Virus record (IMG/VR): IMGVR_UViG_3300000225_000005
Coordinates: 1 to 28,477 of that record
DNA: 28,477 nucleotides
Direction: 5' to 3' (one strand)
Source: a virus
Shown here: in pieces, positions 1-28,477 of the stretch
Layout: every line of letters begins with the position of its first letter
How positions within the stretch are numbered: position 1 is the stretch's first letter
Notes under the pieces: generated by a model
Seen by the model: only the letters and a program-made list of their open reading frames with translations
The model's database searches: none
Told to the model about the DNA's origin: nothing
Made by a program: the position numbers and the translations under genes

Positions 1-1878
1 AGTGCAATTGGATTGGGTGAAGTTAAGACAGTAGCAGATGCAGTTACGAGTGCAGTAAATGCTTATGGTCAAGAAAACCTTAGTGCTGAAAGTGCAACAG
101 ATATTTTGACTGCTGCAGTTCGTGAAGGTAAATTAGAAGCAGATGCATTAGCACAATCAATGGGTAAAGTTCTTCCTACTGCATCTGCTTTAGGTGTGGA
201 ATTTCACGAAGTTGGTGCAGCAATGGCAGCGATGTCAAGAACAGGAACTGATGCAGCAATGGCATCAACATCATTAAACACTATTTTATCAAATATTTTA
301 TCACCTGTTAAACAAGCAAAAGATGAATTAGCAAAAATTGGCATAACATCAGATGACCTCCGTAAATCACTTGATGAAGATGGATTAATTCACGTTTTAA
401 CAATGCTTGCAACTGAATTTGAAGGTAATGTCGAAGCAACAAATGCGGTGTTTGGTAGTATGAGGTCACTAAGAGGTGTTTTAGATTTAACAGGTAAAAA
501 TCTAGGCACTACTGAACAAATATTTCAAAGATTAACAAATACAACTGGAACATTAAATACTGCAGTTACAGAATTAGAAGATGAGTTAAGTCATCAATTT
601 AAAAAATCTTTAGAAGCAGTTAGAACTTCTTTTACAGAATTAGGTAAAACTTTAGCGATTACAATTTTACCTTTTATACAAAAATTTGCAGGATTTTTAA
701 CTACATTAATAAACAAGTTCAACAATTTAGATACTTCAACACAAAATACTATTTTAAGATTAGTCGCATTTACTGCAGCACTTGGCCCTCTTATATTAAT
801 TATTTCAGGTTTAGCATCAGCATTTTCTTTATTAGCAGCACCTGTTGTTTTAGTTTCAGCAGCAGTTATTGCGTTAATATTAGCTTTCGAACACGTACAA
901 ACTAATATAAAAATGGTTGGTTTACAAATTGCAAAATTTGCATCAAAAGCAGTTGTTCGTTTAGGCACAATTGGTAAAGCAATTAGAGCACTATTTAAAG
1001 GCGAAAATATTAATGAAGTTTTAGCCGATATGGATATTTTATTACAGGGTGTAGATGATAAGTTTGACTCAATGATTGAAGCATTAGACCCATTAGGTGA
1101 AAGTATTTTAGAAAAAATATCGTCTGCAGTTGGTAGTTTAATGGATGGATTTAAACAAGTAGGTGTTGGAATAGGTGGACAAATCGGTAAAGGCATAGAT
1201 GAATCATTAACTAAATCTGTTGAAAAAACAATTCCAAAAGTATTAGGCAAAATAGGTGGGGGCTTTGGTACATTAAGTCATTTTATAGCATCATCAATGG
1301 GTGCGGTAATGACACATCTAGAAGAACAACAAGCTAAAGCAGCAGAAATAGCAAAAAAACAAGGCGATATAATTAATAATGCAATGGGTAATATTATAAG
1401 CCAAATAGGTAATTCATTATCTACTCTTTTTGCAGGCGGTAATGTTTCGGCTGAAAAATTTGCTGCAGGTGTATTAGGTATTTTAGGTGATTTAGCAATG
1501 CAAATTGGTACAATGGTTATACTAGCAAATAAAGCAGTAACTGAAATGTTAATTCCTGGTTTAGGGATGGCAGCAGGTTTTGCATTAATTGCAATAGGTG
1601 CAGCTATGAAAGGACTGTCTACAAGATTACAAAATGAGGGTGTGCCATTAGATGGTGCATTTGCTAAAGGTGGTATTATAAGCGGCCCAACAGTAGGATT
1701 ATTAGGAGAATATTCAGGTGCAAGACACAATCCTGAAGTTGTAGCACCTTTAGATAAATTAAAAAGTATGATAAGTTCAAATGGTTCTCAAAACTTATCG
1801 GGTGAGTTTGTAGTAAGAGGACAAGATTTAGTTGTAGCATTACAAAGAGCAGAAAGAAACCGAAACAGATTTAAATAA
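1..1878 (+). CDS. Tail tape measure protein, N-terminus missing (partial)
   Basis: This protein sets tail length and sits inside the tail tube before ejection. The reading frame is open from base 1, so the gene starts outside the window and the first in-frame TTG at base 13 is not a real start. About 625 residues are visible. They include a long Ala-rich helical part, a strongly hydrophobic segment near residues 245-290, and a Gly/Ala-rich membrane-like region near residues 460-530. The C-terminal signature GGIISGPTVGLLGE, followed by EVVAPLDKLK, is typical of phage tape measures. The N-terminal part seen here resembles the TP901 core (alternating Ala-rich helices with AAMAAMSRTGTDA). The stop overlaps the next ATG as TAATG, so the next tail gene is probably translationally coupled. 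The role is confident; the true length is unknown. Confidence 0.93.
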   Translation, partial: SAIGLGEVKTVADAVTSAVNAYGQENLSAESATDILTAAVREGKLEADALAQSMGKVLPTASALGVEFHEVGAAMAAMSRTGTDAAMASTSLNTILSNILSPVKQAKDELAKIGITSDDLRKSLDEDGLIHVLTMLATEFEGNVEATNAVFGSMRSLRGVLDLTGKNLGTTEQIFQRLTNTTGTLNTAVTELEDELSHQFKKSLEAVRTSFTELGKTLAITILPFIQKFAGFLTTLINKFNNLDTSTQNTILRLVAFTAALGPLILIISGLASAFSLLAAPVVLVSAAVIALILAFEHVQTNIKMVGLQIAKFASKAVVRLGTIGKAIRALFKGENINEVLADMDILLQGVDDKFDSMIEALDPLGESILEKISSAVGSLMDGFKQVGVGIGGQIGKGIDESLTKSVEKTIPKVLGKIGGGFGTLSHFIASSMGAVMTHLEEQQAKAAEIAKKQGDIINNAMGNIISQIGNSLSTLFAGGNVSAEKFAAGVLGILGDLAMQIGTMVILANKAVTEMLIPGLGMAAGFALIAIGAAMKGLSTRLQNEGVPLDGAFAKGGIISGPTVGLLGEYSGARHNPEVVAPLDKLKSMISSNGSQNLSGEFVVRGQDLVVALQRAERNRNRFK

Positions 1879-4800
1879 TGGCTTACGGAGTTAAATATGA
1901 ACTTAATTTCTCTGATGTAAAAGGAAATCAAAGAAGTGTACAGATTCTTAAAAAAGATTACGTTGGTGATGTAAATTCAATTGTTGGTACTGATAACCCT
2001 GTTATTATTAAATATACCAATGATGATGATTTTTATAATCCAATTATTGGTTCTTCTTGTGTTTTAAATATTAAAACTACCGACACAATTTCGTATGATG
2101 AATTTATAAATTTTGATGAAAGAGAATATAAAATTAGAGTTAATATTGGCGTTGAAGATGAAGCAGCAGATATTAATTCACCACTTTGGCAACTTGCAGA
2201 CACAAATTGGGAAGCAACAGATTATAATTGGGCAGTAGGAACAGTCTTTCAAGTTTATTGGGAAGGGTTTTTAGTTGCAGATACTTTTACAGAAGTAATA
2301 CAAGCAAAGCCTTATGATATAAGTTTACGAGCAATTGATAATTTAGGAACTCTTGATTCATTTTTAATACCTGATGGAAATATAAATACAAATGCAGATG
2401 GTTCAATTAAAACTGCAGCAGGTGAACAAACTTTATTAGATTCTGCTTTTTATTATATACATAAAATATTAGCATTTACAGGTCTTAATTTTGATATATA
2501 TATTCAAAATAATATTAGAAAAGTAAACCCATCTACAGGTAGTGTTGAAACTGAAAATAATAATTTATTTCAAGATATATTAATTAATGAGTTTGCTCTG
2601 CAAGAAAACTTTTCAAAATTATCATCTAAAGTAGTTTTAGAAAACATATTAAGATTAACAAATTCAAGAATATATCAGGCTAATGCAAGTTGGTATATTG
2701 TTTCAAATAGTAATTATTATGATTCAGCAATTTCAGGTACTTTAACAAGTACTGAAGATGCTTCAGGAGATTCTACTGGTGAAAGTCAAGATGACACAGT
2801 ATTTAATCCAACAGTCACAACACTTTCAATTGGTACACCAACATCCACGAGTGGAATTTTACGTGGTTTAATTATTAGTGATAGAGGTTTAACAATTATA
2901 GAAAGAGGATTTTATTTTGGTACTAATCCAATTATATTAGCAAACCCTAAAATAGTTTCAACCGATTCGTCAACAACTTTTACTTCAACACAAACATCTT
3001 TAACAACTGGCGAAACGTATTACATAATGGCTTATGCTAAAAATAACGCAACAACAGAAGGAACAGGTGGAGTTATAGAATATGTACCTGGTGGTGTAAC
3101 ACCTGAACCTGAACCAGACCCAATATCACCTACATTAACATCAATACAACCAAACGGTTACAATGTAACAAATACTTCAATTCCTTGTGCAGGTCAAGTA
3201 GATAATGTAGGAACAAGTAATGTAACTGAATATGGTTTTTATTTTGGTACCAATGCAAACGCTTATAATCAAAGTCCAAATGTTAGGTATGTTGTAGCGA
3301 CAGGTCAAAATTTATCTACTGCTTTTGGTTTTGTTACAGACACATCAGGCGCTCCTTTTAATTTAACTTTAACTGCAGGAATTGCATATTATATTACACC
3401 ATTTGCAAAAAACAGCACAGGTGAGGGAGTTGGAACGACAAGAACACAATACACTTGGAATGCTTGGGAGTTAAGAAAACAATTAGATTCATCAAAACAA
3501 TATGTTCCATATACAAGTGATTCTCGAACAGATAATGTTTATATTTCAACTTCATCAAGTGCAGCTGAATGTTATACAATAATGATTGGTGCTTATAGAG
3601 CAAGTTTAGCAGGTTTGCCAACAATTTCAGGTGCTTGTCAAGATGATACAACTGAACCAACACCATCTGTAGAAGAAACTTGTGTTAAAATTTTATTATA
3701 TAGAAGTAATACGGCAAAAGATTTATGTTGTGAAACACCAACATCTAGAGACGCATATATAAATGGTACTGATTTTTATAGTAACACAGGTACAACTAAA
3801 GTTTACATTAATAATGATTGTAGCACACTTTTAACAAGCAATCAATATTTATCAAGCGATTTAGTTGATTACAGATATTGGAATGGAACTAATTTAGAAA
3901 ATACAATAGGGTGTAATTCTACAAGTGCAGATAAATGTGAAACAGACGTAGTAACACCGTCAGCATTTGTTGTAAAAAATGAAATCACAAATGAAGAAGA
4001 TTTTGTTGTATATAATTCAACATTCTCTATTGAAGAAAGGGTTACAATTTCAGGTGATGCTCAAAATAAATGTTGGACTATAATACAAGAATATCCTGCA
4101 TCAGCAAATCCAACAAGAACAATAACTGCAAGTTGTAATACTCCTAAACCTGTAGAAAGTGAATCTTGTCCTACAATGACATTTTTTGCAAGATATTTAA
4201 AATGTAATGATGATAGAATAGAAATAATTGGAAATAATACTGAAAACTTTCCAAACTACATTAAACAAATAAGCACAGGTGATTGTTGGTCATTAATTGA
4301 TAGAACAAGTCAAACACAAAATGATGATAATTTCAATTTAGGTTGTACACCGACTTCTAAATTTCAAATAGATTTTTTAAGTTGTGATGATTGTTTAGGT
4401 GTATCTACAACTACACAAGTGCCACCACCACCATCTACTACAACACAACCATCTATATTTTATAGATTGTATCAAAGTTTACTAACCAATTGTTCAGATG
4501 ATGATGTTATTTTACAAGTATCTAATTCAACAAATAGTTTTCCTACTGTAATAACAAATGGAACTGATTGTTATAAATCTTTATCAGATGGCGGAAATGG
4601 AGCAGATGGTGATGTAGATAATTATATATCTTTTAACACCGGTAATTTAGCAACTGACTGTGCTGCTTGTAATACATATTTAAGTACGACAACTACACAA
4701 GCACCAACTACAACTCAAGCACCTTGTACTGCAATACAGGCAAATGTTACAACGAGTGCATTAAATGCTTGTTGTGGTGGAAAAGCAGTAGAAATATATA

Positions 4801-4973: not shown

Positions 4974-5882
4974 ATGAGATATATTTGTTGCCAACCATCT
5001 AATATTTATTATTCTTGGCAAGTAGATACTATGATTTATAGTTTTGTAAATAATGGTATAAATCAAGAAGAAATAGATATTGTTTTTTCTATAAAATCTT
5101 TAGAGGATAATCCTTGTCTTTATTTATTAGATAAATACCCAAATGTTAATTTTTATTTTTATCCTGATACAAGAAAAAGTATTAAATATATTTCAAGTAT
5201 AAGACCATACACATTAAAAAAACATTTTTATAAATACCCTGATTTGTATAAAGGAACTTTTATGTATCACGATTGTGATATAGCTTTAACAAAACCATTA
5301 GAAATAGATAATTATTTATGTGGGTGCGACCAAACTTGTTATTTAAGCGACACAATTAGTTATATAGGACACAATTATATATTATCAAAAGGTCAAGATG
5401 TTTTAGATTTAATGTGTAGTGTAGTAAATATTGATAAAGAAATTATAAAACAAAATGAAGAAAATTCAGGTGGTGCTCAATATGTTTTAAAAAATATAGA
5501 TTATACTTTTTGGGAAGAAGTTGAAATTGATTGCGAGAATTTATTTTATGAAGTTGTTAGGCTAAATACTAAAAAAGTTGCAGAAGATGACAGGCATCAC
5601 CCTTTGCAAATATGGTGTGCTGATATGTGGGCAGTACTTTGGAATTTATGGAAAAGAGATAGAAAGACAAAAATTATAAAAGAATTAAATTTTACTTGGG
5701 CTACAGAACCAATTGTTAAATGGGGTGAAAATTCTATATTTCATAATGCAGGTATTAACAACAATAAAGACAAAGCATTTTATAAAGCGAACTATATAAA
5801 TAAAATTCCACCTAATGATTTAGATATAAATCCAACTTTGGCTTCCTTTAAATATTATGAACTTGTAAAACAAATATTGTAA
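4974..5882 (+). CDS. Glycosyltransferase-like protein (GT-A type) within the tail operon
   Basis: A 302-residue protein whose ATG follows the previous stop with no gap (TAAATG), so it is almost certainly co-expressed with the tail genes. It has features of a GT-A nucleotide-sugar transferase: a Rossmann-like start, then YHDCDIAL with a DxD-type metal-binding motif at residues 100-102. Further on are SGGAQY (165-170), which resembles the GGxQ acceptor or donor loop of small GT-A enzymes, and SIFHNAG (254-260), a late His motif that often supplies a metal ligand. No membrane segment or signal peptide is seen, so it should act in the cytoplasm. Its substrate is unknown. By position it could glycosylate the Thr/Pro- and Asn-rich tail protein just upstream, but it could also act on a host sugar. 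The fold call is moderate; the substrate is inference only. Confidence 0.6.
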   Translation: MRYICCQPSNIYYSWQVDTMIYSFVNNGINQEEIDIVFSIKSLEDNPCLYLLDKYPNVNFYFYPDTRKSIKYISSIRPYTLKKHFYKYPDLYKGTFMYHDCDIALTKPLEIDNYLCGCDQTCYLSDTISYIGHNYILSKGQDVLDLMCSVVNIDKEIIKQNEENSGGAQYVLKNIDYTFWEEVEIDCENLFYEVVRLNTKKVAEDDRHHPLQIWCADMWAVLWNLWKRDRKTKIIKELNFTWATEPIVKWGENSIFHNAGINNNKDKAFYKANYINKIPPNDLDINPTLASFKYYELVKQIL

Positions 5883-5887
5883 ATTTG
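5880..5887 (+). promoter_or_regulatory. Putative TAnnTTTG promoter -7 box, leaderless start at 5892
   Basis: The motif TAAATTTG matches the Bacteroidota sigma-ABfr -7 consensus TAnnTTTG. It overlaps the stop codon of the upstream gene and is followed by only 4 nt before the ATG at 5892, so a transcript would start at or within a base or two of the start codon. No convincing -33 TTG at the usual spacing is seen. Confidence 0.45.
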
Positions 5888-5891
5888 TAAT

Positions 5892-7208
5892 ATGGGTACA
5901 ATTAGAACAGAGCAGACAAGATTACTACAAGATAATGGTACAGAGAATATTGAATTTTTTGTTTATGATAAAGATGGTGTTGCTAAAACAACACTCAATC
6001 AAACTAAAGATGTATTAAAACAAATACCAAGTAATCTATCACCAATTAATTCAAATCTATCAGTTGAGTATTTAAGACCTTTAAGAGATGCAATAAAAAC
6101 AACAACATCAGAAGATACACAATTATTAAATAAAAATCCAAATTTTAGATATAGCACTTTTAATTGGGATATAAATACAGTTAGCGGTGAAGTAATGGCC
6201 TCTATTGGAATGCCAAGTCAGTTTGCAGTTAATACAAATCCAATAACTGGAATTTATTGTTTAATTCAAAATGGTGTACCTCCTGCATATAATAATTTGA
6301 ACCCACAAGAAAAAACTAATTATATGATAAAAAATATTTTACTTGACACACCTATTATTAGTGGTCAAAGTATTGATGTTAGTTATAATTATTATTTACA
6401 TACTGGTTTAATAATTTATTTATTTAATACATTACAATATATGTCTGTTGGTTTAGATTCAACAGGCAATGGTTCGATTAACAAAATGTATAATTTTGAA
6501 GAAAGTAAATTTGAAACAGGAACTTTTACAGAAAGTAAATTTTTTCAAAAAATTGATATTACACAATATGATTCTTGGAATTTATATTCTACGGAAATTA
6601 AATGTAATTTAACTGAAGATGAAACAAACCCACATATCGAAGTAAAATTGTTTAAACTTACACAGGGTCAAAGTTTAACACAACCTTTAATGTTTTATGA
6701 TGGGTTTGCCATTACACAAAAAAATTCAGCAAAAAAAAGACAACATACAAAAAGAAAAGGAGCAATATTTACATTTATTGATGGTAATATAACTGTAGCA
6801 AATGATAATATTACCGGTGAATATAAACAAGAAGAAACAATGCTTTCAAATGAAATTAATTTACAAAACACTAATTCAATATTTGGAACATTTGCCAGAA
6901 AAGACAGGCCATTGTCACTACAACAAAACACTTTAGATAAATGTATATTACAAGAGTTTATAAATGATTATAGAACGCCTATAAAAAGATATGAAGGAGA
7001 ATTTTATAAAGATGATTCTGATGTAGTACCAATTTATTTTTATCACAAACTTTGGGTAAATTTTGGCACCGCAGTTTTACAAGAGCCTGTTAGTTGCATT
7101 ATAGATAGTTTAGAATATAATGTCAAACAAAATACATATAATATTATAATGCACATACCTAATGCAGATGATGATATTATAAGTTATGATACCTATAAAT
7201 TAAGTTAA
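5892..7208 (+). CDS. Tail/baseplate structural protein of unknown exact role
   Basis: A 438-residue protein that closes the tail module. The middle part is beta-rich with Asn/Thr-rich stretches (for example residues 160-260), as in virion proteins. The C-terminal part, from about residue 340 (LDKCILQEFINDYRTPIKRYEGEF, quoted in two pieces: LDKCILQEF and INDYRTPIKRYEGEF), resembles the end of tail proteins in flavobacterial phages, where a YEG strand and an I-x-x-LEYNxK strand precede a short acidic tail. That C-terminus might once have been continuous with the N-terminal domain of the large protein at 1878, with the glycosyltransferase gene inserted later. This is a guess. The gene has its own candidate -7 box overlapping the preceding stop. 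The structural call is moderate and the specific role is not known. Confidence 0.6.
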   Translation: MGTIRTEQTRLLQDNGTENIEFFVYDKDGVAKTTLNQTKDVLKQIPSNLSPINSNLSVEYLRPLRDAIKTTTSEDTQLLNKNPNFRYSTFNWDINTVSGEVMASIGMPSQFAVNTNPITGIYCLIQNGVPPAYNNLNPQEKTNYMIKNILLDTPIISGQSIDVSYNYYLHTGLIIYLFNTLQYMSVGLDSTGNGSINKMYNFEESKFETGTFTESKFFQKIDITQYDSWNLYSTEIKCNLTEDETNPHIEVKLFKLTQGQSLTQPLMFYDGFAITQKNSAKKRQHTKRKGAIFTFIDGNITVANDNITGEYKQEETMLSNEINLQNTNSIFGTFARKDRPLSLQQNTLDKCILQEFINDYRTPIKRYEGEFYKDDSDVVPIYFYHKLWVNFGTAVLQEPVSCIIDSLEYNVKQNTYNIIMHIPNADDDIISYDTYKLS

Positions 7209-7516: not shown

Positions 7517-7792
7517 ATGAATAAATTTAGAATAGATTTTATAACAAGTTTAGAAAAATTAAAACTTCAAAAAACTTTTGTAGCTAGTAAATTAGATATG
7601 ACTATGCCTACATTAAATAGTAAGGTGTTAAATCCTGAAAAATTAACTTTAAAAGATTTAAGTAAATTATTAGAGTTAGGATTTCAAATTGACATAATTA
7701 ATATATTAAAAGAAATAAAAGAAAAAGAAAATGGAAAAAACAACAAAAGCAGCAAGATTGAAAAGTTTGTGGAACAAATATCAACTTCTTGA
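7517..7792 (+). CDS. Small helix-turn-helix-like protein
   Basis: A 91-residue protein with a helical N-terminal domain. Residues about 10-60 read like a Cro/XRE-type helix-turn-helix: KLQKTFVASKLDMTMPTLNS, then KLTLKDLSKLLELG, with a recognition helix near MTMPTLNSKVL. The C-terminus is a charged tail rich in Lys and Glu. It starts 10 nt after the previous stop and its 3' end overlaps the next gene by 62 nt in another frame, so its last 20 residues are constrained by that gene. It could be an early transcription regulator. With no divergent partner or repressor nearby there is no sign of a lysogeny switch. Confidence 0.6.
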   Translation: MNKFRIDFITSLEKLKLQKTFVASKLDMTMPTLNSKVLNPEKLTLKDLSKLLELGFQIDIINILKEIKEKENGKNNKSSKIEKFVEQISTS

Positions 7793-8162
7793 AGAAGATG
7801 GTTTTAAACTACCAAGAGGTGGTAAAGTAATACCAATAATTACTAGAACAGGTATAGATAAAATTCAAGCAACTGAAAAAATAAAAATACAGTTTAGTGA
7901 AATTGAATATCAACCTGGAATTTCTGCAGCAGTTAAAGCAACTGCAACTTTAGGTGACAATTATGTTGAATCTTATGGTGAGGCAAATAATAAGAATAAT
8001 AAAAATCCTTATCCATTAGCTATGGCAGAAAAGAGGGCAATGTCCCGAGTCGTACTTAAACTAACTGGCTTTTATGAGTTGGGAGTTTTTGGTGAAGATG
8101 AAAGTGATACTTTCAAAAAAGAAGAAACTAAAGAAGTTTCAAGTTATAATATTAAAAGTTAA
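7731..8162 (+). CDS. Putative single-strand annealing protein (Rad52/Erf-like)
   Basis: A 143-residue protein placed directly before the OB-fold protein and the RecE-like exonuclease, where phage recombination modules carry their annealing protein. The core (about residues 40-120) runs as strands with a GDNYVESYGEA turn. It ends in a helix with PLAMAEKRAMSRVVLKLTG (residues 93-111) and an acidic FGEDES, a pattern seen in Rad52/Sak/Erf-like proteins where the last helix packs on the DNA-binding groove. It would pair exposed single strands after resection. No other in-frame Met precedes the MAEK helix, so the ATG at 7731 is the only reasonable start despite the 62-nt overlap upstream. Family assignment is tentative; profile or structure comparison would decide. 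Confidence 0.5.
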   Translation: MEKTTKAARLKSLWNKYQLLEEDGFKLPRGGKVIPIITRTGIDKIQATEKIKIQFSEIEYQPGISAAVKATATLGDNYVESYGEANNKNNKNPYPLAMAEKRAMSRVVLKLTGFYELGVFGEDESDTFKKEETKEVSSYNIKS

Positions 8163-8168
8163 AATTAT

Positions 8169-8501
8169 ATGGAATTAAAAGGAACAATTAAATTAATTGG
8201 TGATGTACAAAATTTTAAAGATACATTTACTAAAAAGTCAATAGTAATAACTACTGATGAAAAATATTCCAATGATATTGAGATTGAGTTTATTAAAGAT
8301 AGAATTGAACTAATTAACAATCTGAATGTCGGAGATTATATTACAGTAGGAATTAACATTAATGGTAGAGGTTGGGAAAATCCTGAAACTAAAATAACAA
8401 AATATTTTACATCTATTATTGGTTGGAAAGTTGATGTCGGTGAAAAAGAAACCGTATCAATTCCAGTTGGACAAGAAACTGGCGATGATTTACCATTCTA
8501 A
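8169..8501 (+). CDS. DUF3127-like single-strand DNA-binding (OB-fold) protein
   Basis: A 110-residue protein, a compact OB-fold by pattern (MELKGTIKLIG at the start, then VITTDEKYSNDIEIEFIKD). It resembles DUF3127, an SSB-like family common in Bacteroidota and their phages. The C-terminus TGDDLPF is a textbook SSB tail tip, which docks partner proteins such as nucleases, helicases and primases. It lies 7 nt after the annealing-protein candidate and is followed at once by a strong intrinsic terminator, so it ends that transcript. It would protect single-stranded DNA and recruit partners during recombination and replication. Confidence 0.8.
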   Translation: MELKGTIKLIGDVQNFKDTFTKKSIVITTDEKYSNDIEIEFIKDRIELINNLNVGDYITVGININGRGWENPETKITKYFTSIIGWKVDVGEKETVSIPVGQETGDDLPF

Positions 8502-8542: not shown

Positions 8543-8728
8543 ATGACACAAGGAGAAAAACAGAATTTAGAATTTAAAGATATTATGATTAAAGCATTAC
8601 AAGATGAACTTGAAAAAAAAGATTTAATTATAACAGGAAAGAATTTAATTATAAAACGATATAAAGAATTAACTAAAAATAAATTTAATAAAGATGGAAA
8701 TGAAAATAGAGAAACTAGAGTGTGTTAA
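8543..8728 (+). CDS. Small coiled-coil-like hypothetical protein
   Basis: A 61-residue, highly charged, probably helical protein (KALQDELEKKDLIITGKN with heptad-like spacing). It begins 13 nt after the terminator and overlaps the start of the exonuclease gene by 35 nt. I do not recognise the family. Its position suggests co-translation with the RecE-like exonuclease. Confidence 0.55.
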   Translation: MTQGEKQNLEFKDIMIKALQDELEKKDLIITGKNLIIKRYKELTKNKFNKDGNENRETRVC

Positions 8729-9473
8729 TGATAACATTAAAGATTATCATTCAAAAGATTGTATTTCAGCAAGTGGCTTAAAATTAATATATAAAAGGTC
8801 AATATTTCATTATTTAAACAAAGAGTTTAAAAAAACATCTGCTATGGATTTAGGTAATGCAGCACATATATTATTATACGAAGGATTAGAAAAATTTGGT
8901 GAAGAATATTTTGTTTTGCCAAAATTAGATATGAGGAAAAAAGATGATAAAGAACTAAAAAAAGATTTAGAATTTAGAAATAAAGGAAAAGAAAGTATAT
9001 CTAATGACCAGTATAAAATACTAATGAACTTATATACTAATTTAGATAATAATAAAGATGCTTTATTTTTTACAAAAGGTAAATATGAAATTAGTCATTA
9101 TGGTACTTATGAAGGAATACCTGTTCGTGTAAGACCTGATTGTATGGGTGAGGATTGGATTAGTGATATTAAAACCTGTCAAGATAGTTCGCCAAGAGAA
9201 TTTAAAAATACTATTTGGAAATTTTCATATATGGTGCAAGCAGTTTTTTATTGTGATATGCTTGGTTATGACCCTAAAAAGTTTAGATTTATTGCTTGTG
9301 AAACAAATGCACCTTATACTGTACAGCATTATGCATTAAGTGAAGATATGATTAAAGTTGGTCGTGATGGTTGGAAAAAAGCATTTCATTATTGGAAACA
9401 ATATGTTCAAGAAAATAAAATTACATATTTTGAAGGCTACGTCAAAACTTTAGATAATGCTATAATTATATGA
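8694..9473 (+). CDS. RecE-like (exodeoxyribonuclease VIII-type) PD-(D/E)XK exonuclease
   Basis: A 259-residue 5'-3' exonuclease of the RecE/lambda-exonuclease group, which resects double-stranded ends for strand annealing. Visible motifs: ISASGLK (24-30); GNAAHILLYEG with His 58; RPDCMG with the catalytic Asp 149; SDIKT with Asp 158 and Lys 160; and YMVQAVFY (179-186) with the conserved Gln and Tyr. The size is normal for phage versions of the C-terminal RecE nuclease. Two possible starts, ATG 8694 and ATG 8700, differ by two residues. The gene overlaps both neighbours (35 nt upstream, 4 nt ATGA downstream). With the annealing candidate at 7731 it forms a two-component recombination system. 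Confidence 0.9.
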   Translation: MEMKIEKLECVNDNIKDYHSKDCISASGLKLIYKRSIFHYLNKEFKKTSAMDLGNAAHILLYEGLEKFGEEYFVLPKLDMRKKDDKELKKDLEFRNKGKESISNDQYKILMNLYTNLDNNKDALFFTKGKYEISHYGTYEGIPVRVRPDCMGEDWISDIKTCQDSSPREFKNTIWKFSYMVQAVFYCDMLGYDPKKFRFIACETNAPYTVQHYALSEDMIKVGRDGWKKAFHYWKQYVQENKITYFEGYVKTLDNAIII

Positions 9474-10150
9474 AAGATATTGAAAGAATTAAAACAATAT
9501 GCGATAATTATTTTAATATAGACATATCAGTTAAAACTAGGGCGAGAGAATATGCAGATGCTCGTAAAATGTATTATAAATTATCTAGGGATTTATTAAG
9601 AAAACCAGTAAAAAAAATCGCTAGTATTGTTAATGTAGACCACTCAACTGTTATTGTTGGTTCACAAAGGTTAGATGAATTAATTAGTATAGATAAAGAT
9701 ATTGAAGAAAATTATTTAACTTTAAGGGATAAGTGTCTAAATGATGGTGCGATTTTTAATATACATACTACAGATATAAATAATATGTCAAACCCTTATT
9801 TAAAATATTTAGGTAAAGAGGATATTTTACAACATAGTGTTATGGAATATATGAAAAATAAATATTCTGATGTGTATTGCATACACGTACCAAATGAAGG
9901 TAAAAGAACACCATTTATGCAATTCAAATTTAAATATTTAGGTGGCCAAAGAGGCATTCCTGACATTTTAATATTTAAACAAAATAAGAAAGGAAAGTGT
10001 GGTTTAGCGATAGAATTAAAAGTAGGTTATAATAAACCTACAGAAAATCAATTTAATGCATTAGAAAGTTTGAAAAAAGCAAACTGGGAATGTCATTGGC
10101 TAAATGATTATGAAAAAACTATTCAAATAATAGATGAATATTTTAAATAA
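9470..10150 (+). CDS. DnaA domain IV-like HTH fused to a VRR-NUC nuclease
   Basis: A 226-residue two-domain protein. Residues about 1-75 match the DNA-binding domain IV of DnaA: a helix with AREYADARKMYYKLSRDLL, then IASIVNVDHSTVIVGSQRL, where DHST (57-60) is the DnaA signature that reads DnaA boxes. Residues about 117-226 form a VRR-NUC nuclease of the PD-(D/E)XK superfamily: QHSVMEYM, HVPNEGKRT, GGQRGIPDILIF (Asp 165), AIELKVG (Glu 182, Lys 184), then PTENQ with Gln 194. The AAA+ part of DnaA is absent. The gene is coupled to the exonuclease by a 4-nt overlap. The fusion suggests a nuclease directed to DnaA-box-like sites, either the phage origin or host oriC. The domains are confident, their joint role is inferred. 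Confidence 0.85.
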   Translation: MKDIERIKTICDNYFNIDISVKTRAREYADARKMYYKLSRDLLRKPVKKIASIVNVDHSTVIVGSQRLDELISIDKDIEENYLTLRDKCLNDGAIFNIHTTDINNMSNPYLKYLGKEDILQHSVMEYMKNKYSDVYCIHVPNEGKRTPFMQFKFKYLGGQRGIPDILIFKQNKKGKCGLAIELKVGYNKPTENQFNALESLKKANWECHWLNDYEKTIQIIDEYFK

Positions 10151-10155
10151 TTATT

Positions 10156-10404
10156 ATGCAAAAAAAGATGCTTTTTTGGAATGAAAAAAGACAACGATTG
10201 AAATATACAAATAACACTAAATTATTAGAAAGTGATTTTGAATATGTCGGAAAATTAACTTCAGCAGAATTTGATATATTAATAGAATCAATGTTTATTG
10301 TTTATGAAGATGATTATATTTCGTTTGAAGATATAGTTATTATGTACTCAAAATTAATTAGTTTTATATGTGAATTAAAAAGAATAACGAATGAAGAATT
10401 ATGA
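10156..10404 (+). CDS. Hypothetical protein
   Basis: An 82-residue acidic, mainly helical protein (LTSAEFDILIESMFIVYEDD) with no motif I recognise. It begins 5 nt after the nuclease and overlaps the replication protein by 4 nt (ATGA), so it belongs to the replication operon. Confidence 0.65.
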   Translation: MQKKMLFWNEKRQRLKYTNNTKLLESDFEYVGKLTSAEFDILIESMFIVYEDDYISFEDIVIMYSKLISFICELKRITNEEL

Positions 10405-11072
10405 AAAGAACATATTATGCAGTAATACCTGCGTATGTTAGATATGATAAAGATTTAACACCGAATGCTAAACTTATGTTTGGCGAATTAACCGCACTAA
10501 GTAATGATAAAGGTTATTGTTATGCTTCTAACAAATACTTTTCGGAACTTTATCAAGTGTCTACTGTTTCAATTTCCAAATGGATTAATCAATTAAAAGA
10601 GAAAAAATATATTAAAGTAACTTTTACATATAAAAATAATTCTAAAGAAATAGAATCTAGAAACATCTATATAAGTAATGTTAAAGAGGTATTAAAGAAA
10701 TCTTTAACACCCCATAAAGAAAAGTTAAAAGATAATAGTAATACTACTATTACTAATAATAAAGAGATAATATATAATGAGTTAATTGAAAAGTCATTTT
10801 CTCATATTTCAAATCTTTTTCCTTTAGCAGTTCAACCAAGAACTAAAGTTGATATAAAAAATTGGAAAGAATGTTTGGATAAATTAGATAGATTAGATGG
10901 TTATGATACAAGAGCAGTTTATTATATAGTTAAAAAAGTAAGGTCAGATGGTTTTTGGAAAGAGAATTTTTTCTCAATATTAAAACTTCGTAAAAAAAAT
11001 AATGATGGTGTTAAATACATTGATATGTTTAGGGCAAAATTTGCTAAAGATTATGAATTTAACACAAAATGA
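10401..11072 (+). CDS. HTH replication initiation-like protein
   Basis: A 223-residue protein of the phage replication-protein type with an N-terminal winged helix (HTH_36-like). YYAVIPAYVRYDKDLTPNAK, then LMFGELTALS and YCYASNKYFSELYQVS, leads into a recognition helix ending KWINQLKEKKYI (about residues 60-73). A flexible Asn/Lys/Thr-rich linker (about 105-130) connects to a helical C-terminal domain (residues 135-205), as in DnaD-like loaders. This class binds the phage origin and helps load the replicative helicase, here probably the primase-helicase two genes on. It overlaps both neighbours by 4 nt. The N-terminal domain call is good; loader function is by analogy. Confidence 0.8.
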   Translation: MKRTYYAVIPAYVRYDKDLTPNAKLMFGELTALSNDKGYCYASNKYFSELYQVSTVSISKWINQLKEKKYIKVTFTYKNNSKEIESRNIYISNVKEVLKKSLTPHKEKLKDNSNTTITNNKEIIYNELIEKSFSHISNLFPLAVQPRTKVDIKNWKECLDKLDRLDGYDTRAVYYIVKKVRSDGFWKENFFSILKLRKKNNDGVKYIDMFRAKFAKDYEFNTK

Positions 11073-11506
11073 TATTTGATTTAATAATTTTAGATATAAT
11101 GGAAAATATAAGTTTAATTAAAAATAGTAAAAGAATAAAACAATCAATGGATTTTACAAGCGTACAAAATCGTGCTATACATCCAAGCGATATAGATGGT
11201 ATTTTAGAATTTGATGATAAATATTTATTTATTATAGAAATGAAATTCTTTGGTACTAATATACCAACAGGCCAAAAATTAGTATTACAAAGAATTATAG
11301 ATGCGTGGCAAGAAACGAAAAGAATTGGTGCAATATTTAAAGTTGAACACAAGTTTACAGATGACAATATAGATGTGCCATTAAATTTATGTTTTGTTAC
11401 TAAAATATATAGTAATAAAAAATGGACAAAAATAAAGCCACAACCTTTTGTAAAATATTTAAATAGAGTTGGAAAAAAACATAAAATATATAAATGTAAA
11501 TTTTAA
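11069..11506 (+). CDS. Small PD-(D/E)XK-type nuclease
   Basis: A 145-residue protein with a minimal PD-(D/E)XK core: IHPSDIDGILEFDDKYLFII, then EMK. The Asp of DIDG and the Glu/Lys of EMK fit the metal site, and PTGQKLVLQRIIDAWQ follows as the conserved helix with Gln. A short basic tail ends the protein. It resembles small phage nucleases annotated as Holliday-junction-resolvase-like or Vsr-like, but I cannot assign the subfamily. The ATG at 11069 overlaps the upstream stop (ATGA); an inner ATG at 11099 is also possible and removes ten residues of uncertain value. It would cut DNA in the replication/recombination module. Confidence 0.65.
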   Translation: MIFDLIILDIMENISLIKNSKRIKQSMDFTSVQNRAIHPSDIDGILEFDDKYLFIIEMKFFGTNIPTGQKLVLQRIIDAWQETKRIGAIFKVEHKFTDDNIDVPLNLCFVTKIYSNKKWTKIKPQPFVKYLNRVGKKHKIYKCKF

Positions 11507-11547
11507 TATAATAAATAAAATAATTAAGTTTATTGAAAGAAAAAGAA

Positions 11548-13221
11548 ATGAAAGAAAAATTTTTAGATATAGGAATTGATATTGGTAATAAATCAGGAAA
11601 TTATCATATAGTTTGTCCTAAATGTAGTCATACAAGAAAAAAATCCAAAGACAAGTGTTTAAGTATAAACGTAGAAAAAGGTTTATATAATTGTTTTCAT
11701 TGTAATTGGTCGGGTAATGTTAATGTAAGGGCTAAAAAACAATATGTTAAGCCTGTAGAAGTAAAATCACCATTAAATAAAAAAACAATTGAATGGTTTT
11801 CTAACAGAGGTATAACTGAAAACACTTTAGTTAATTGGAAAATAACTGAAAGCAAAGAATATTTTACACAAGTAAAACAAAAAAGAAATGCTATAAATTT
11901 TAATTATTATAGAGAAAATGAGTTAGTTAACATAAAATTTAGAGATGGAGACAAGAATTTTAAATTATATAAAAATGCAGAATTAATATTTTATGGTATA
12001 GATAGAATAAAAACAATGGACAAAATATATATAACAGAAGGCGAAATTGATGCTTTAAGTTTATTTGAGTCTGGAATATTTTCAGTTTGTAGTGTACCAA
12101 ATGGCGCTAATGTAGGCAATCAAAGGTTAGAATATTTAGACAATTGTTGGGAATATTTCGTTGATAAAAAAGAAATTATATTATGCACAGATAATGACCA
12201 AGCAGGGTTATCTTTACGAAAAGAGTTAGCAAGAAGATTTGGAAAAGGTAGATGTAAGTATATAGATTTTGGTGAATATAAAGATGCAAATGAGATATTA
12301 ATAAATTTAGGTAGTGCAGAATTAAGAAGTGTATTGGATAAACCGAAAAACTTTCCAATCGAGGGTGTTTTAAATATTAACGATATTTGGGATAGTGTTT
12401 TAAATTATAATGAAAATGGAATATCAAATTACAATGTGCGACTTGGCAACAGTCGAGAATATTATAACATTAGCTTCGGAGAATGGTCTGTATGCACAGG
12501 CATTCCAAATGCAGGAAAATCAGACGTCATCGACCAAATATGTGTTAATCTGGCACTACACGAAGATTTTCGCATAGCAATGTTCTCTCCTGAATCATTT
12601 CCTTACGAAGCACACATAAAAAGACTAGCAAATAAAATAAATGAAAAAGATTGCGACACAGAATCATTAAATAATACAAAGGATTTTATAATTGAACATT
12701 TTGATTTTGTAAAAATAGATTTAGAAAATTTAACTCTTAAAGGAATACTAGATGCTTTTAGACAATTAGTATTTCAAAAAGGAACAAACGTTTGTGTAAT
12801 TGACCCATATAATATGTTAGACCATTCTGCACAAAGAGATTTTACTTATGTCGGTAAACTATTATCGGAAATAACACAATTTTGCCAACAAACAAACACT
12901 CATTTATTTCTAGTAGCACACCCAAGAAAGATGGAAAGTATTAATGGTAAATATAGGGTGCCTAATCCTTATGATATATCTCAATCATCTGATTTTTTTA
13001 ATAAAGCATATAATTGTATTACAGTATATAGAAATCTTGGACAACAAACACAATATTTAAGTGATAGTGTTTCTGTATATATACAAAAAGTAAAAAGAAA
13101 AGAAAATGGAATGCAAGGGAATTTTATGGTTGCACCTGATTTTAGAAATGGTGGTGTTTATAAAGAGATAAATGAATATGACCAAAAAATAAGTACCCAA
13201 AAAAATGACATACCATTTTAA
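11548..13221 (+). CDS. Bifunctional primase-helicase (T7 gp4/Twinkle type)
   Basis: A 557-residue replisome enzyme that primes and unwinds DNA. Counting from ATG 11548: a CHC2-like zinc finger (C23-x2-C26, then CFHC near 49-52), a Toprim primase core with TEGEID (163-168) and the acidic pair TDNDQAG (214-220), and a DnaB-like RecA helicase with Walker A GIPNAGKS (318-325). Walker B is near CVIDPYNM (416-423), followed by LFLVAHPRK. The zinc finger, Toprim and helicase are all intact, so both activities are expected. An upstream in-frame TTG at 11533 exists but the ATG is the better start. The C-terminus NDIPF resembles an SSB tail tip. With no polymerase gene present, this enzyme must work with the host polymerase. 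Confidence 0.95.
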   Translation: MKEKFLDIGIDIGNKSGNYHIVCPKCSHTRKKSKDKCLSINVEKGLYNCFHCNWSGNVNVRAKKQYVKPVEVKSPLNKKTIEWFSNRGITENTLVNWKITESKEYFTQVKQKRNAINFNYYRENELVNIKFRDGDKNFKLYKNAELIFYGIDRIKTMDKIYITEGEIDALSLFESGIFSVCSVPNGANVGNQRLEYLDNCWEYFVDKKEIILCTDNDQAGLSLRKELARRFGKGRCKYIDFGEYKDANEILINLGSAELRSVLDKPKNFPIEGVLNINDIWDSVLNYNENGISNYNVRLGNSREYYNISFGEWSVCTGIPNAGKSDVIDQICVNLALHEDFRIAMFSPESFPYEAHIKRLANKINEKDCDTESLNNTKDFIIEHFDFVKIDLENLTLKGILDAFRQLVFQKGTNVCVIDPYNMLDHSAQRDFTYVGKLLSEITQFCQQTNTHLFLVAHPRKMESINGKYRVPNPYDISQSSDFFNKAYNCITVYRNLGQQTQYLSDSVSVYIQKVKRKENGMQGNFMVAPDFRNGGVYKEINEYDQKISTQKNDIPF

Positions 13222-13237: not shown

Positions 13238-13408
13238 ATGTTTGAAATTGAAGTAGCTACTTGTTATGGTATTGGTATAGGTGTATATTATACAAATGAA
13301 AATATAGAGGGTGTAGATGTTATTGCTGATGATTTAAGACACACCATACAAATAGCATTTTTCTTTATACTTATTAATATAAATTATTTTACAGATGATT
13401 CTAATTAA
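13238..13408 (+). CDS. Small hypothetical protein with a hydrophobic C-terminal segment
   Basis: A 56-residue protein: an acidic N-terminal half (EIEVATCYGIGIGVYYTNEN) and a hydrophobic stretch HTIQIAFFFILININYF near residues 35-51 that could sit in the membrane or form a beta edge. Similar short proteins are common in flavobacterial phages, with no known role. I chose ATG 13238 because it follows a TAnnTTTG box and avoids overlap with the upstream gene. It overlaps the ParB-like gene by 14 nt. Confidence 0.6.
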   Translation: MFEIEVATCYGIGIGVYYTNENIEGVDVIADDLRHTIQIAFFFILININYFTDDSN

Positions 13409-14000
13409 AAAACAAGTTAAAATAGAAACCATATTTGAAAATGAATCTAATCCAAGATTTATAAATAAAAAAGAATTTGAAATATTAGTTAAATCAATAA
13501 AAGATTTTCCTGAAATGTTAGAGAAAAGACCAATTGTAGTTGATGAGAATATGATTATTCTTGGTGGAAATATGAGATTAAAGGCTTGTAAAGAAGCTGG
13601 ATTAAAAAAAGTTTGGATTGACCCAGCAATAAATTGGACTGAAAAACAAAAAAGAGAATTTATAATAAAAGATAATGTTGGTTCTGGAGAATGGGATTGG
13701 GATATATTAGGCAACAATTATACTTTTAAAGAACTTAAAAACTGGGGCTTGGAGGTTAATTCATTTGATATTGATGATATGGAAACTAGCGATGAATTCA
13801 CTTTACCTGATGGTGATAAAGAGCCATTTCAGCAACAGACTTATACACTAGCAGATAAACAAGCCATCTTGATTAAAAATGCAATTACTGATATAAAAAA
13901 AACTGAAGAATTTAAATATGTTGAAACTTTTGGTAATGAAAACGGCAATGGTAATGCTTTATATTTATTAATATCCCAATGGAAAAAAACAAACAGTTAG
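13395..14000 (+). CDS. ParB/Srx-domain protein, probable DNA-modification partner
   Basis: A 201-residue protein with a ParB/sulfiredoxin-like N-terminal domain (about residues 5-75): NPRFIN (19-24), LVKSIKDFPEML (31-42), RPIVVDE and ILGGNMRLKACKEAGLKKV (55-73), the phosphate-binding motif of this fold. The middle (KDNVGSGEWDWDIL, then ELKNWGLEV) is the segment that in many phages links a ParB domain to a DNA methyltransferase. The end (GNENGNGNAL) is also usual for phage ParB-like proteins. The methyltransferase itself is absent, and two Mom-like genes follow instead. ParB/Srx domains use CTP or ATP and often occur beside DNA base-modification enzymes. It overlaps both neighbours. Domain call is strong; role in modification is inferred. 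Confidence 0.85.
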   Translation: MILIKKQVKIETIFENESNPRFINKKEFEILVKSIKDFPEMLEKRPIVVDENMIILGGNMRLKACKEAGLKKVWIDPAINWTEKQKREFIIKDNVGSGEWDWDILGNNYTFKELKNWGLEVNSFDIDDMETSDEFTLPDGDKEPFQQQTYTLADKQAILIKNAITDIKKTEEFKYVETFGNENGNGNALYLLISQWKKTNS

Positions 14001-14677
14001 AAAACATTAATGTTAAAATTATAAATTCTAAAATTGCTAAAGCATATACTGTAAAAAATCACTATATGAAAACCTTTCCAAATCCATTAGTTTGTTTTGG
14101 TGTTTTTTATAATAAATTATTAAGTGGTGTAATTACATTTGGTTTAAGTCCAAGTACAGAACAAAAAATAAAAAAAATTGTACCAAAAATAAATAGAAAT
14201 GAATTTATAGAAATGCAAAGAATGCACATATCAGATTCATTAAAACAAAACACAGAAAGTTATGTTTTAGGAAAAATATATAAACTGTTCAAAGCAAATA
14301 CTAAAATTAAATTATTAATAACACATTCAGGTGGATGCAAAAATGATTGTGGGATTGTTTATCAGGCAAGTAGTTGGATGTATTTTGGCAAAGAATTGTG
14401 CAATGATTTTTATCATACTGATATAGGTGAGTATAAAAACATTATATCTCCTATGAGATTTGGCAGAGTCCCCAGAGAGATTATTAAACAAGGTAATCAA
14501 AAAGTAGGTGAATATTTGTTTGGTAAAGGCAAAATGATTAACTCATTTAGATATTTATATTTATATCCTATTAATAAAGGCATTCGTGGATATTTACAAA
14601 ATAAATGTGAAGAATATCCTAAAGATAGTCAGGTGTTTAGGAAGAACCAAGAATGGATAAAAGGGGGTGACCAATAG
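13979..14677 (+). CDS. Mom-like DNA modification protein (GNAT fold), first copy
   Basis: A 232-residue protein of the Mu Mom family, GNAT-fold enzymes that add a group to N6 of adenine in phage DNA and so block restriction. Visible: INSKIAKAYTVKNHYMK (N-terminal strand and HY motif), FGVFYNKLLSGVITFG (beta hairpin that starts the GNAT core), NEFIEMQRMHISD, a conserved LLITHSGG stretch, and GIVYQASSWMYFG, the late Mom signature. The C-terminus is longer than the second copy and Arg/Lys-rich (FGRVPREIIKQGNQK), perhaps for DNA contact. It starts 22 nt inside the ParB-like gene. Its last codons (14663-14677) also form the 5' strand of a tRNA-like structure, so the sequence there serves two purposes. 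Confidence 0.75.
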   Translation: MEKNKQLENINVKIINSKIAKAYTVKNHYMKTFPNPLVCFGVFYNKLLSGVITFGLSPSTEQKIKKIVPKINRNEFIEMQRMHISDSLKQNTESYVLGKIYKLFKANTKIKLLITHSGGCKNDCGIVYQASSWMYFGKELCNDFYHTDIGEYKNIISPMRFGRVPREIIKQGNQKVGEYLFGKGKMINSFRYLYLYPINKGIRGYLQNKCEEYPKDSQVFRKNQEWIKGGDQ

Positions 14678-22430: not shown

Positions 22431-22538
22431 ATGAATAAAAAAGAAATATTAGAAGCATTAACATTTATAGCATATACAATAACTGGAATTGGAATGTTTT
22501 GTATTTTATACTTAATATCTCAAATATTTTCTGTATAA
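22431..22538 (+). CDS. 35-residue single-membrane-segment protein
   Basis: Starts MNKKEILEAL, then a long hydrophobic segment (TFIAYTITGIGMFCILYLIS, residues 11-30) and a short tail QIFSV. This is a probable inner-membrane microprotein. It follows the structured RNA by 13 nt. The stop leads straight into a tandem repeat of TAATAATAAG-type units. Supported only by its composition and position; function unknown. Confidence 0.5.
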   Translation: MNKKEILEALTFIAYTITGIGMFCILYLISQIFSV

Positions 22539-22571
22539 GTAATAATAAGTAATAATAAGTAATAATAAGTA
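22537..22571 (+). repeat. Tandem repeat of a 10-bp unit made of stop codons
   Basis: The unit AATAATAAGT occurs three times at 22541-22570, flanked by partial units (TAAGT before, AA after). It begins at the TAA of the membrane microprotein and ends 2 nt before the ATG at 22573. It gives stop codons in all three forward frames. It could be a replication-slippage expansion, a translation insulator or an A/T-rich ribosome-landing leader. Confidence 0.85.
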
Positions 22572-22572
22572 A

Positions 22573-27988: not shown

Positions 27989-28477
27989 ATGGGTTTAAAT
28001 AAAAGATTAATTGGTGCAGGTGCTACAGCAAGTGGTGCATTAACACCAAGTGAACACTTTGGAGTCGTATTATACGAAGGTGATGGTTCTACATCACATT
28101 CTATTAACGGAGGTAAGTTTGGTGCAGGTGCTTATTTTAATGGTAGCAGTAGTAAGGTGGACATAGGCTCATTTGGTTCAGTATTTCAGCAAAACTTTAC
28201 TGTTTCTTTATGGTTTAATTTAAATTCTTTATCTGCACTTAATAATTTATTTTCTTCACAAGATGATTATTATACTTATATATTGGCTCGTAATGACACT
28301 AATAAAGTACAAGCATCAATACAAATTGCGCCAAGCACTTCTTATGCTATAAATAGTGGGACAATAACTACTAATACTTGGTATCACGCAGTAATAACTG
28401 TATCGAGCACTGATGGGTTTAAATTTTATATGAACAATGTATTACAAGGTACTGAATCTGCTGCTACAGGAAACTTA
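27989..28477 (+). CDS. LamG/concanavalin A-like adhesin, C-terminus missing (partial)
   Basis: 163 codons are visible, open at the right edge. Start is MGLNKRLIGAGATASGAL (residues 1-18). The jelly-roll pattern follows: GGKFGAGAYFNGSSSKVDIG, then FTVSLWFNLNSLSALNNLFS, and NTWYHAVITVSSTDGFKFYM with YMNNVLQGTE. This is the LamG/Laminin_G_3 profile (GxGAxFNGxx, W-x-N, TWYH-x-V). Such domains bind glycans. It lies after the fibre and its chaperone, so it probably forms the receptor-binding tip. Confidence 0.9.
   Translation, partial: MGLNKRLIGAGATASGALTPSEHFGVVLYEGDGSTSHSINGGKFGAGAYFNGSSSKVDIGSFGSVFQQNFTVSLWFNLNSLSALNNLFSSQDDYYTYILARNDTNKVQASIQIAPSTSYAINSGTITTNTWYHAVITVSSTDGFKFYMNNVLQGTESAATGNL

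Follow-up and report, generated by a model that had tools for sequence, protein, structure and literature searches.

The gene studied here lies on a stretch of DNA of 28,477 nucleotides from a marine virus of flavobacteria (IMG/VR record IMGVR_UViG_3300000225_000005), which was analysed over its full length and is referred to below as the window. The gene encodes a protein in which a DnaA-domain-IV-like DNA-binding domain is joined to a VRR-NUC nuclease domain, and it is embedded in a recombination-replication operon. The features of this region are listed below in the order in which they occur.

7731 to 8162, plus strand: 143 amino acid protein without a family match, a putative single-strand annealing protein by its position only
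8169 to 8501, plus strand: DUF3127 single-strand DNA binding protein (SSB; PF11325, 5.5e-23; phrog_4932, 2.4e-30)
8694 to 9473, plus strand: RecE/exonuclease VIII-type PD-(D/E)XK exonuclease (DUF3799; PF12684, 1.1e-21; phrog_412, 2.7e-54)
9470 to 10150, plus strand: fused DnaA-domain-IV-like/VRR-NUC gene, 226 amino acids (profiles, AlphaFold2, Foldseek)
9470 to 9733, plus strand: DnaA-domain-IV-like helix-turn-helix, residues 1-88 (Pfam Bac_DnaA_C, alignments to 1j1v and 8btg, contact residues, AlphaFold2)
9755 to 9790, plus strand: disordered linker, residues 96-107 (AlphaFold2 pLDDT below 50; site of a 10-residue deletion in the related locus L004)
9785 to 9787, plus strand: in-frame ATG (labelled M107; the codon two before the N of N108-P109), a possible internal start that may be the retained ancestral VRR-NUC start
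9803 to 10147, plus strand: VRR-NUC domain, residues 112-226 (Pfam, family alignment, family profile, Foldseek)
10156 to 10404, plus strand: 82 amino acid protein with no assigned function, found directly after the nuclease gene in every relative read, fused or unfused
10401 to 11072, plus strand: replication initiator, HTH_36, O/DnaD-loader-like (PF13730, 1.3e-12; phrog_19658, 1.6e-28)
11533 to 13221, plus strand: primase-helicase (phrog_239, 5.5e-81)

The order of genes is thus putative annealing protein, SSB, RecE-type exonuclease, DnaA-like arm plus VRR-NUC, 82 amino acid protein and initiator, with the primase-helicase further on. A junction resolvase is expected in a recombination-replication module of this kind. 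The ATG of the fused gene overlaps the stop codon of the exonuclease gene (ATGA), suggesting that the two are translationally coupled. At the place that corresponds to the putative annealing protein, the related locus L017 encodes an ERF-family annealing protein (6e-20). Between the initiator and the primase-helicase (11069-11506) lies a gene for a 145 amino acid protein containing SDIDGVLEF...LIEMK, which resembles a small PD-(D/E)XK nuclease core and had no match in Pfam or PHROGs; a homologue occupies this position in L017 and L004, and a different protein in L047. Downstream, 13395-14677 encodes a ParB/nuclease-like protein and, behind it, a Mom-like DNA modification protein (phrog_1384, 8e-33); chemical modification of the phage DNA is therefore possible. 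Three exact copies of ATAAGTAATA, spaced by 10 bp, occur at 22535-22572 between the gene for the major head protein and the next genes. The left end of the window (1-1878) encodes a tape measure protein and an ORF that is LamG-like by eye runs off the right end (27989-28477). Across the two ends, the last ORF would continue in frame into the first. As no end repeat was found in the window, and the join would place the LamG-like stretch in the middle of the tape measure protein, the window probably represents a fragment and not a circle.

The original prediction had placed DnaA domain IV at the N-terminus of the fused protein and a VRR-NUC domain at the C-terminus, with the AAA+ part of DnaA missing, and our searches bear out all three parts. 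The Pfam family Bac_DnaA_C matches residues 4-64 above its curated cut-off (E = 2.5e-8; 34.3 bits against 31.5), and a profile built from the N-terminal family recovers known DnaA structures at E values of about 1e-9 to 1e-10. The match to the DnaA model TIGR00362 covers domain IV alone (38 bits against a cut-off of 343.9) and the AAA+ ATPase domain III of DnaA is absent from the fused protein in the profile search. Pfam VRR_NUC matches residues 153-207 at 21.3 bits, slightly below its cut-off of 23.8 in the window protein itself, and scores 33.8 bits in the unfused relative L047. The C-terminal family profile finds the VRR-NUC structure psNUC (4qbl) at 6e-14. We modelled the fused protein with AlphaFold2 from 42 related rows, which yielded two confident domains (mean pLDDT of 87.8) on either side of the linker. 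The DnaA-like domain comprises helices at residues 2-15, 26-43, 47-53, 58-74 and 76-90. In Foldseek searches the N-terminal half of the model matched DnaA domain IV in 3pvp and 1j1v, both of which are structures bound to DnaA boxes (1.3e-3, 1.2-1.3 Å, target TM of about 0.8, range 0.81-0.86), and the C-terminal half matched 4qbl (4e-6, 2.0 Å). Both halves therefore belong to known families.

The published VRR-Nuc motif consists of E-PD-ExK followed, about 10 residues past the lysine, by a conserved glutamine that contacts the lysine (PMC4103454). The corresponding residues of the window protein are E117, P164-D165, E182-x-K184 and Q194, and all of them are invariant in the family alignment. 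E117 is assigned as the motif glutamate because it opens the first nuclease helix, and Q194 lies 10 residues past the lysine, matching stNUC (PMC4103454). The active site had originally been given as Q121, D165 and E182-x-K184; D165, E182 and K184 hold, whereas Q121, although likewise invariant in the family, is distinct from the published VRR-Nuc glutamine, a place taken by Q194. The closest characterised proteins, the free-standing phage or bacterial resolvases psNUC (4QBL), stNUC (4QBO) and saNUC (4QBN), share the fold, the E-PD-ExK and Q residues and a phage setting with the window protein (PMC4103454). The nearest solved relative, psNUC, is a dimer that cuts four-way junctions symmetrically but leaves linear duplex intact, and four-way junctions are also the substrate of the characterised free-standing VRR-NUCs (PMC4103454). 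Compared with these resolvases, the window protein adds the N-terminal DnaA-domain-IV arm (a next-door gene in relatives), and junction cutting is predicted here. FAN1 is also a VRR-NUC with additional DNA-binding parts, but it is a monomeric 5'-flap nuclease in which an insertion of two helices prevents dimer formation, and its profile match is weak. The AlphaFold2 model has a single short helix between beta1 and beta2 (residues 148-156), as in psNUC, rather than the two long helices of the FAN1-type insertion.

Scanning IMG/VR gave at least 120 relatives, and the 80 best of them were read. The fusion is present in 14 loci including the window, which answers the call for a search for the same architecture elsewhere, and most of the other loci have two adjacent genes, the DnaA-like gene first, with a spacer of usually 27-28 bases. 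Estimates of dN/dS are about 0.03-0.1 for the nuclease and 0.07-0.45 for the DnaA-like arm, indicating that both domains are maintained by purifying selection. Together with the 13 further loci that carry the fusion, this argues that the fusion is no assembly artefact. Each half was also searched alone, which avoids selecting for the presence of both domains. With the DnaA-like query, a VRR-NUC gene lies directly downstream in 78 of 80 loci and the remaining two are cut by the contig end, giving 78 of 78 uncut loci; with the nuclease-only query, a DnaA-like gene lies directly upstream in 64 of 74 loci and five of the ten exceptions are cut at the contig start. These counts describe the most similar loci only, as the nuclease scan alone gave 533 relatives. 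A third, more distant query returned the same picture of pairing. The same two proteins are thus encoded by neighbouring genes in dozens of related viruses, so it is very likely that the DnaA-like protein and the VRR-NUC work together, and the earlier idea that both domains serve one task is backed by this conserved adjacency and by the fusion.

In the tree, a single well-supported clade of 18 rows holds all of the fusions; it also contains L023/L028, where the genes are separate but overlapping, and L017/L018, sisters of the window's clade, where the nuclease is kept and the DnaA-like domain is lost. No DnaA-like copy was found elsewhere in the whole 34-kb contigs of L017 and L018. A single fusion event and a later loss could explain this, although the tree requires three label changes and leaves the history unsettled. 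Other loci that keep the nuclease include L051, with no remnant of the arm, and L120, where a 55 amino acid ORF upstream of the nuclease (3798-3965) matches the coiled-coil tail of the unfused arm (see below) only and the DNA-binding domain is lost. The arm is thus dispensable for the nuclease, as these four loci show. In L093 a different 99 amino acid protein, with weak HTH_28 and HTH_23 matches, is encoded just upstream of the VRR-NUC (5718-6017). An arm without a nuclease was not seen within this group of relatives. We dropped the broader statement that the DnaA-like protein is always accompanied by the nuclease, which is true inside this group only, as free-standing copies without an adjacent VRR-NUC occur in isolated Flavobacterium, Olleya, Nonlabens, Cellulophaga and Pelagibacter phages. 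These "DnaA C-terminal" proteins (tooticki/mumin, Harreka_1, P12024L, phi46:1 and HTVC035P) are small and mostly encoded in early, recombination or replication regions; unlike the window protein they are unfused and not directly beside a VRR-NUC, although phi46:1 has one three genes upstream. The whole fused protein had no match in 84,980 genomes, and the nuclease alone matched five MAG contigs, three of them named Flavobacteriaceae. UniProt holds an unnamed protein of the same length (A0A516L0Z0; 42% identity over 221 aligned columns). Searches of the open literature for DnaA domain IV together with VRR-NUC or phage nucleases found no description of the pair or of the fusion.

The unfused DnaA-like protein has a conserved C-terminal tail, LVxDYNLLLLENDxLKxKIxELEE..., which is predicted to form a coiled coil and was modelled by AlphaFold2 as one 35-residue helix with moderate confidence. 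The tail motif is present in 185 of 195 unfused ORFs (from overlapping loci, not all of them independent) and in none of the fused ORFs, which would be expected if the covalent link took over a contact. Most simply, the coiled coil would let the separate arm join a partner, either itself or the nuclease, and fusion would have taken its place. All 14 fused genes have a start codon at the site of the former nuclease start (seven ATG, six TTG and one GTG), in a disordered and otherwise variable stretch, and other NTG codons ahead of the KYLGKE motif are rare, with two shown (L004 and L021). TTG is a minority leucine codon here (8-37%); it is the sole candidate nuclease start in the unfused loci L022 and L042/L043/L045 and the likely nuclease start in L047, L017 and L018. 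This suggests that the fused genes may also yield a second product, an arm-less nuclease made from the internal start. The fused lineages are related to one another, so the kept start codon is a lead rather than proof.

E. coli DnaA reads bases through R399 and residues 423, 432-435, 438 and 439 (PMC5043019, PMC5742627). In the window protein R24 corresponds to R399, R32 to R407 and D57-H58-S59-T60 to D433-H434-T435-T436. The arm thus shares with DnaA domain IV (1J1V, 3PVP, 8BTG) the fold, the basic-loop arginine R399, R407 and the recognition-helix histidine, and R399, R407 and H434 are invariant across all 60 distinct family members. Over positions 399, 423, 432-435, 438 and 439, the window protein is the same as flavobacterial host DnaA (taken from MAGs that also carry relatives of the nuclease) only at R399, D433 and H434: position 423 is a lysine, T/A at 435 has become serine, and 432, 438 and 439 are changed as well. 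The recognition helix reads VDHSTVIV in the window and mostly KNHATVMH in unfused relatives, the latter being nearer to flavobacterial host DnaA (RDHATVLH) than to E. coli DnaA. Of four DnaAs tried, the flavobacterial protein also scored highest against the arm family profile. A family signature in the arm, Y-V-x-A-R-x-x-Y-Y-x-x-C-R, was not seen in the DnaAs compared. The arm therefore has a DnaA-derived or DnaA-related fold, and its target sequence is probably not the classical DnaA box.

The original prediction went further and proposed a nuclease that the arm guides to DnaA boxes, either of the phage origin to start replication or of host oriC to stop it, and had called for a search for such boxes. 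The invariant contact residues, the host-like recognition helix of unfused relatives and the preference of the profile for flavobacterial DnaA are all in keeping with such a site-specific origin nuclease. DnaA boxes, however, were not enriched in the window (TTATNCACA, one found against 2.8 expected; TTATCCACA with at most one mismatch, four found against 11.9 expected) or over 716 kb of relatives, where TTATCCACA occurs seven times against 8.1 expected and, with one mismatch, takes a middle rank among 25 shuffled words. The apparent depletion of boxes in the window was gone in the pooled relatives. We also looked for a cluster of boxes in the flavobacterial dnaA region, from which to derive the host box, and found none there. 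DnaA-box specificity of the arm is thus not supported, and the diverged helix of the window protein, with its lysine at 423, likewise counts against this reading, as does the sparing of linear duplex by psNUC (PMC4103454). A precedent for a nuclease that borrows the DnaA domain IV module is found in the TnpA-REP (HuH) nucleases of subclass 2.1, which have a C-terminal Bac_DnaA_C domain (PMC6006769); their nuclease fold is unrelated, their role is in mobile elements and the domain order is reversed. The repeats flanking these genes are unlike DnaA boxes, and the authors propose a changed target or no direct role of the domain in target recognition (PMC6006769). As the operon encodes its own separate replication initiator and free-standing VRR-NUCs act as junction resolvases (PMC4103454), origin nicking or an attack on oriC by the fused protein is unlikely, and we consider an origin nuclease quite improbable overall.

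The strongest competing explanation is that the arm regulates transcription of the early replication and recombination operon and that the fusion merely ties this regulator to the resolvase, for instance in autoregulation. A helix-turn-helix combined with a coiled coil is a frequent layout among dimeric regulators, L093 has a different small HTH-like protein at the same place, and free-standing DnaA-like proteins are encoded in early regions of isolated flavophages, such as right before Erf/YqaJ/SSB in P12024L. As these distant proteins are unpaired with VRR-NUC, the basic role of the arm may indeed differ and could be regulatory. The gene nevertheless sits within the operon, coupled to the exonuclease stop codon, and not at its head; in this group it always adjoins the nuclease and it became fused to it. 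Scans for over-represented 9-mers and clustered repeats gave no shared repeated motif; the words recovered were shared coding words, plus a single local 12-bp repeat in L046. We give regulation a minor chance. The arm might instead be a decoy that competes with host DnaA for its boxes while the attached nuclease acts independently, a role that would suit the host-like helix of the unfused relatives and the many free-standing copies in phages. This would leave the strict pairing and fusion with a resolvase unexplained, and the recognition helix of the window protein has diverged; we regard it as very improbable.

We favour, as somewhat the likelier explanation, that the gene encodes a Holliday-junction or branched-DNA resolvase of the phage recombination-replication module, equipped with a DnaA-like DNA-binding arm. 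This reading draws on the fold and profile matches to psNUC, the invariant active site, the pairing and fusion, the tail helix lost on fusion and the operon order; there is direct support for both folds, for an active site with its residues intact, for the conserved pairing of the genes, for their fusion and for the operon. The loci that do without the arm, and the distant free-standing DnaA-like proteins of isolated phages, count against it. Under the resolvase reading the VRR-NUC domain would dimerise and cut four-way or fork DNA arising from the neighbouring exonuclease, SSB and putative annealing protein. Each subunit would carry one DnaA-like domain as an arm that binds double-stranded DNA and keeps the enzyme on phage DNA or positions it there. 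In most relatives this arm is a separate coiled-coil protein encoded just upstream, which may contact the nuclease; in the lineage of the window the two are joined, and free nuclease may still be made from the start codon retained at the junction. A more elaborate and doubtful possibility is that the two products of one gene, a sequence-anchored full-length protein and an arm-less resolvase, form mixed dimers and that these, by means of a reader derived from DnaA but with a new target sequence, direct the cutting of junctions to chosen sites in the phage DNA.

Free-standing VRR-NUC resolvases are known to select DNA by its shape. If the resolvase reading is correct, the presence of a conserved, and in this lineage fused, sequence-reader domain would imply that in some phages the site of junction cutting is controlled as well, or that the enzyme is kept on the phage's own DNA. 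The relatives provide a natural series, from coiled-coil pair through overlapping genes and fusion to loss of the arm, that allows this to be tested by comparison. It would also give a testable role to the small "DnaA C-terminal" phage proteins, which are common and are without a known function in the records examined.
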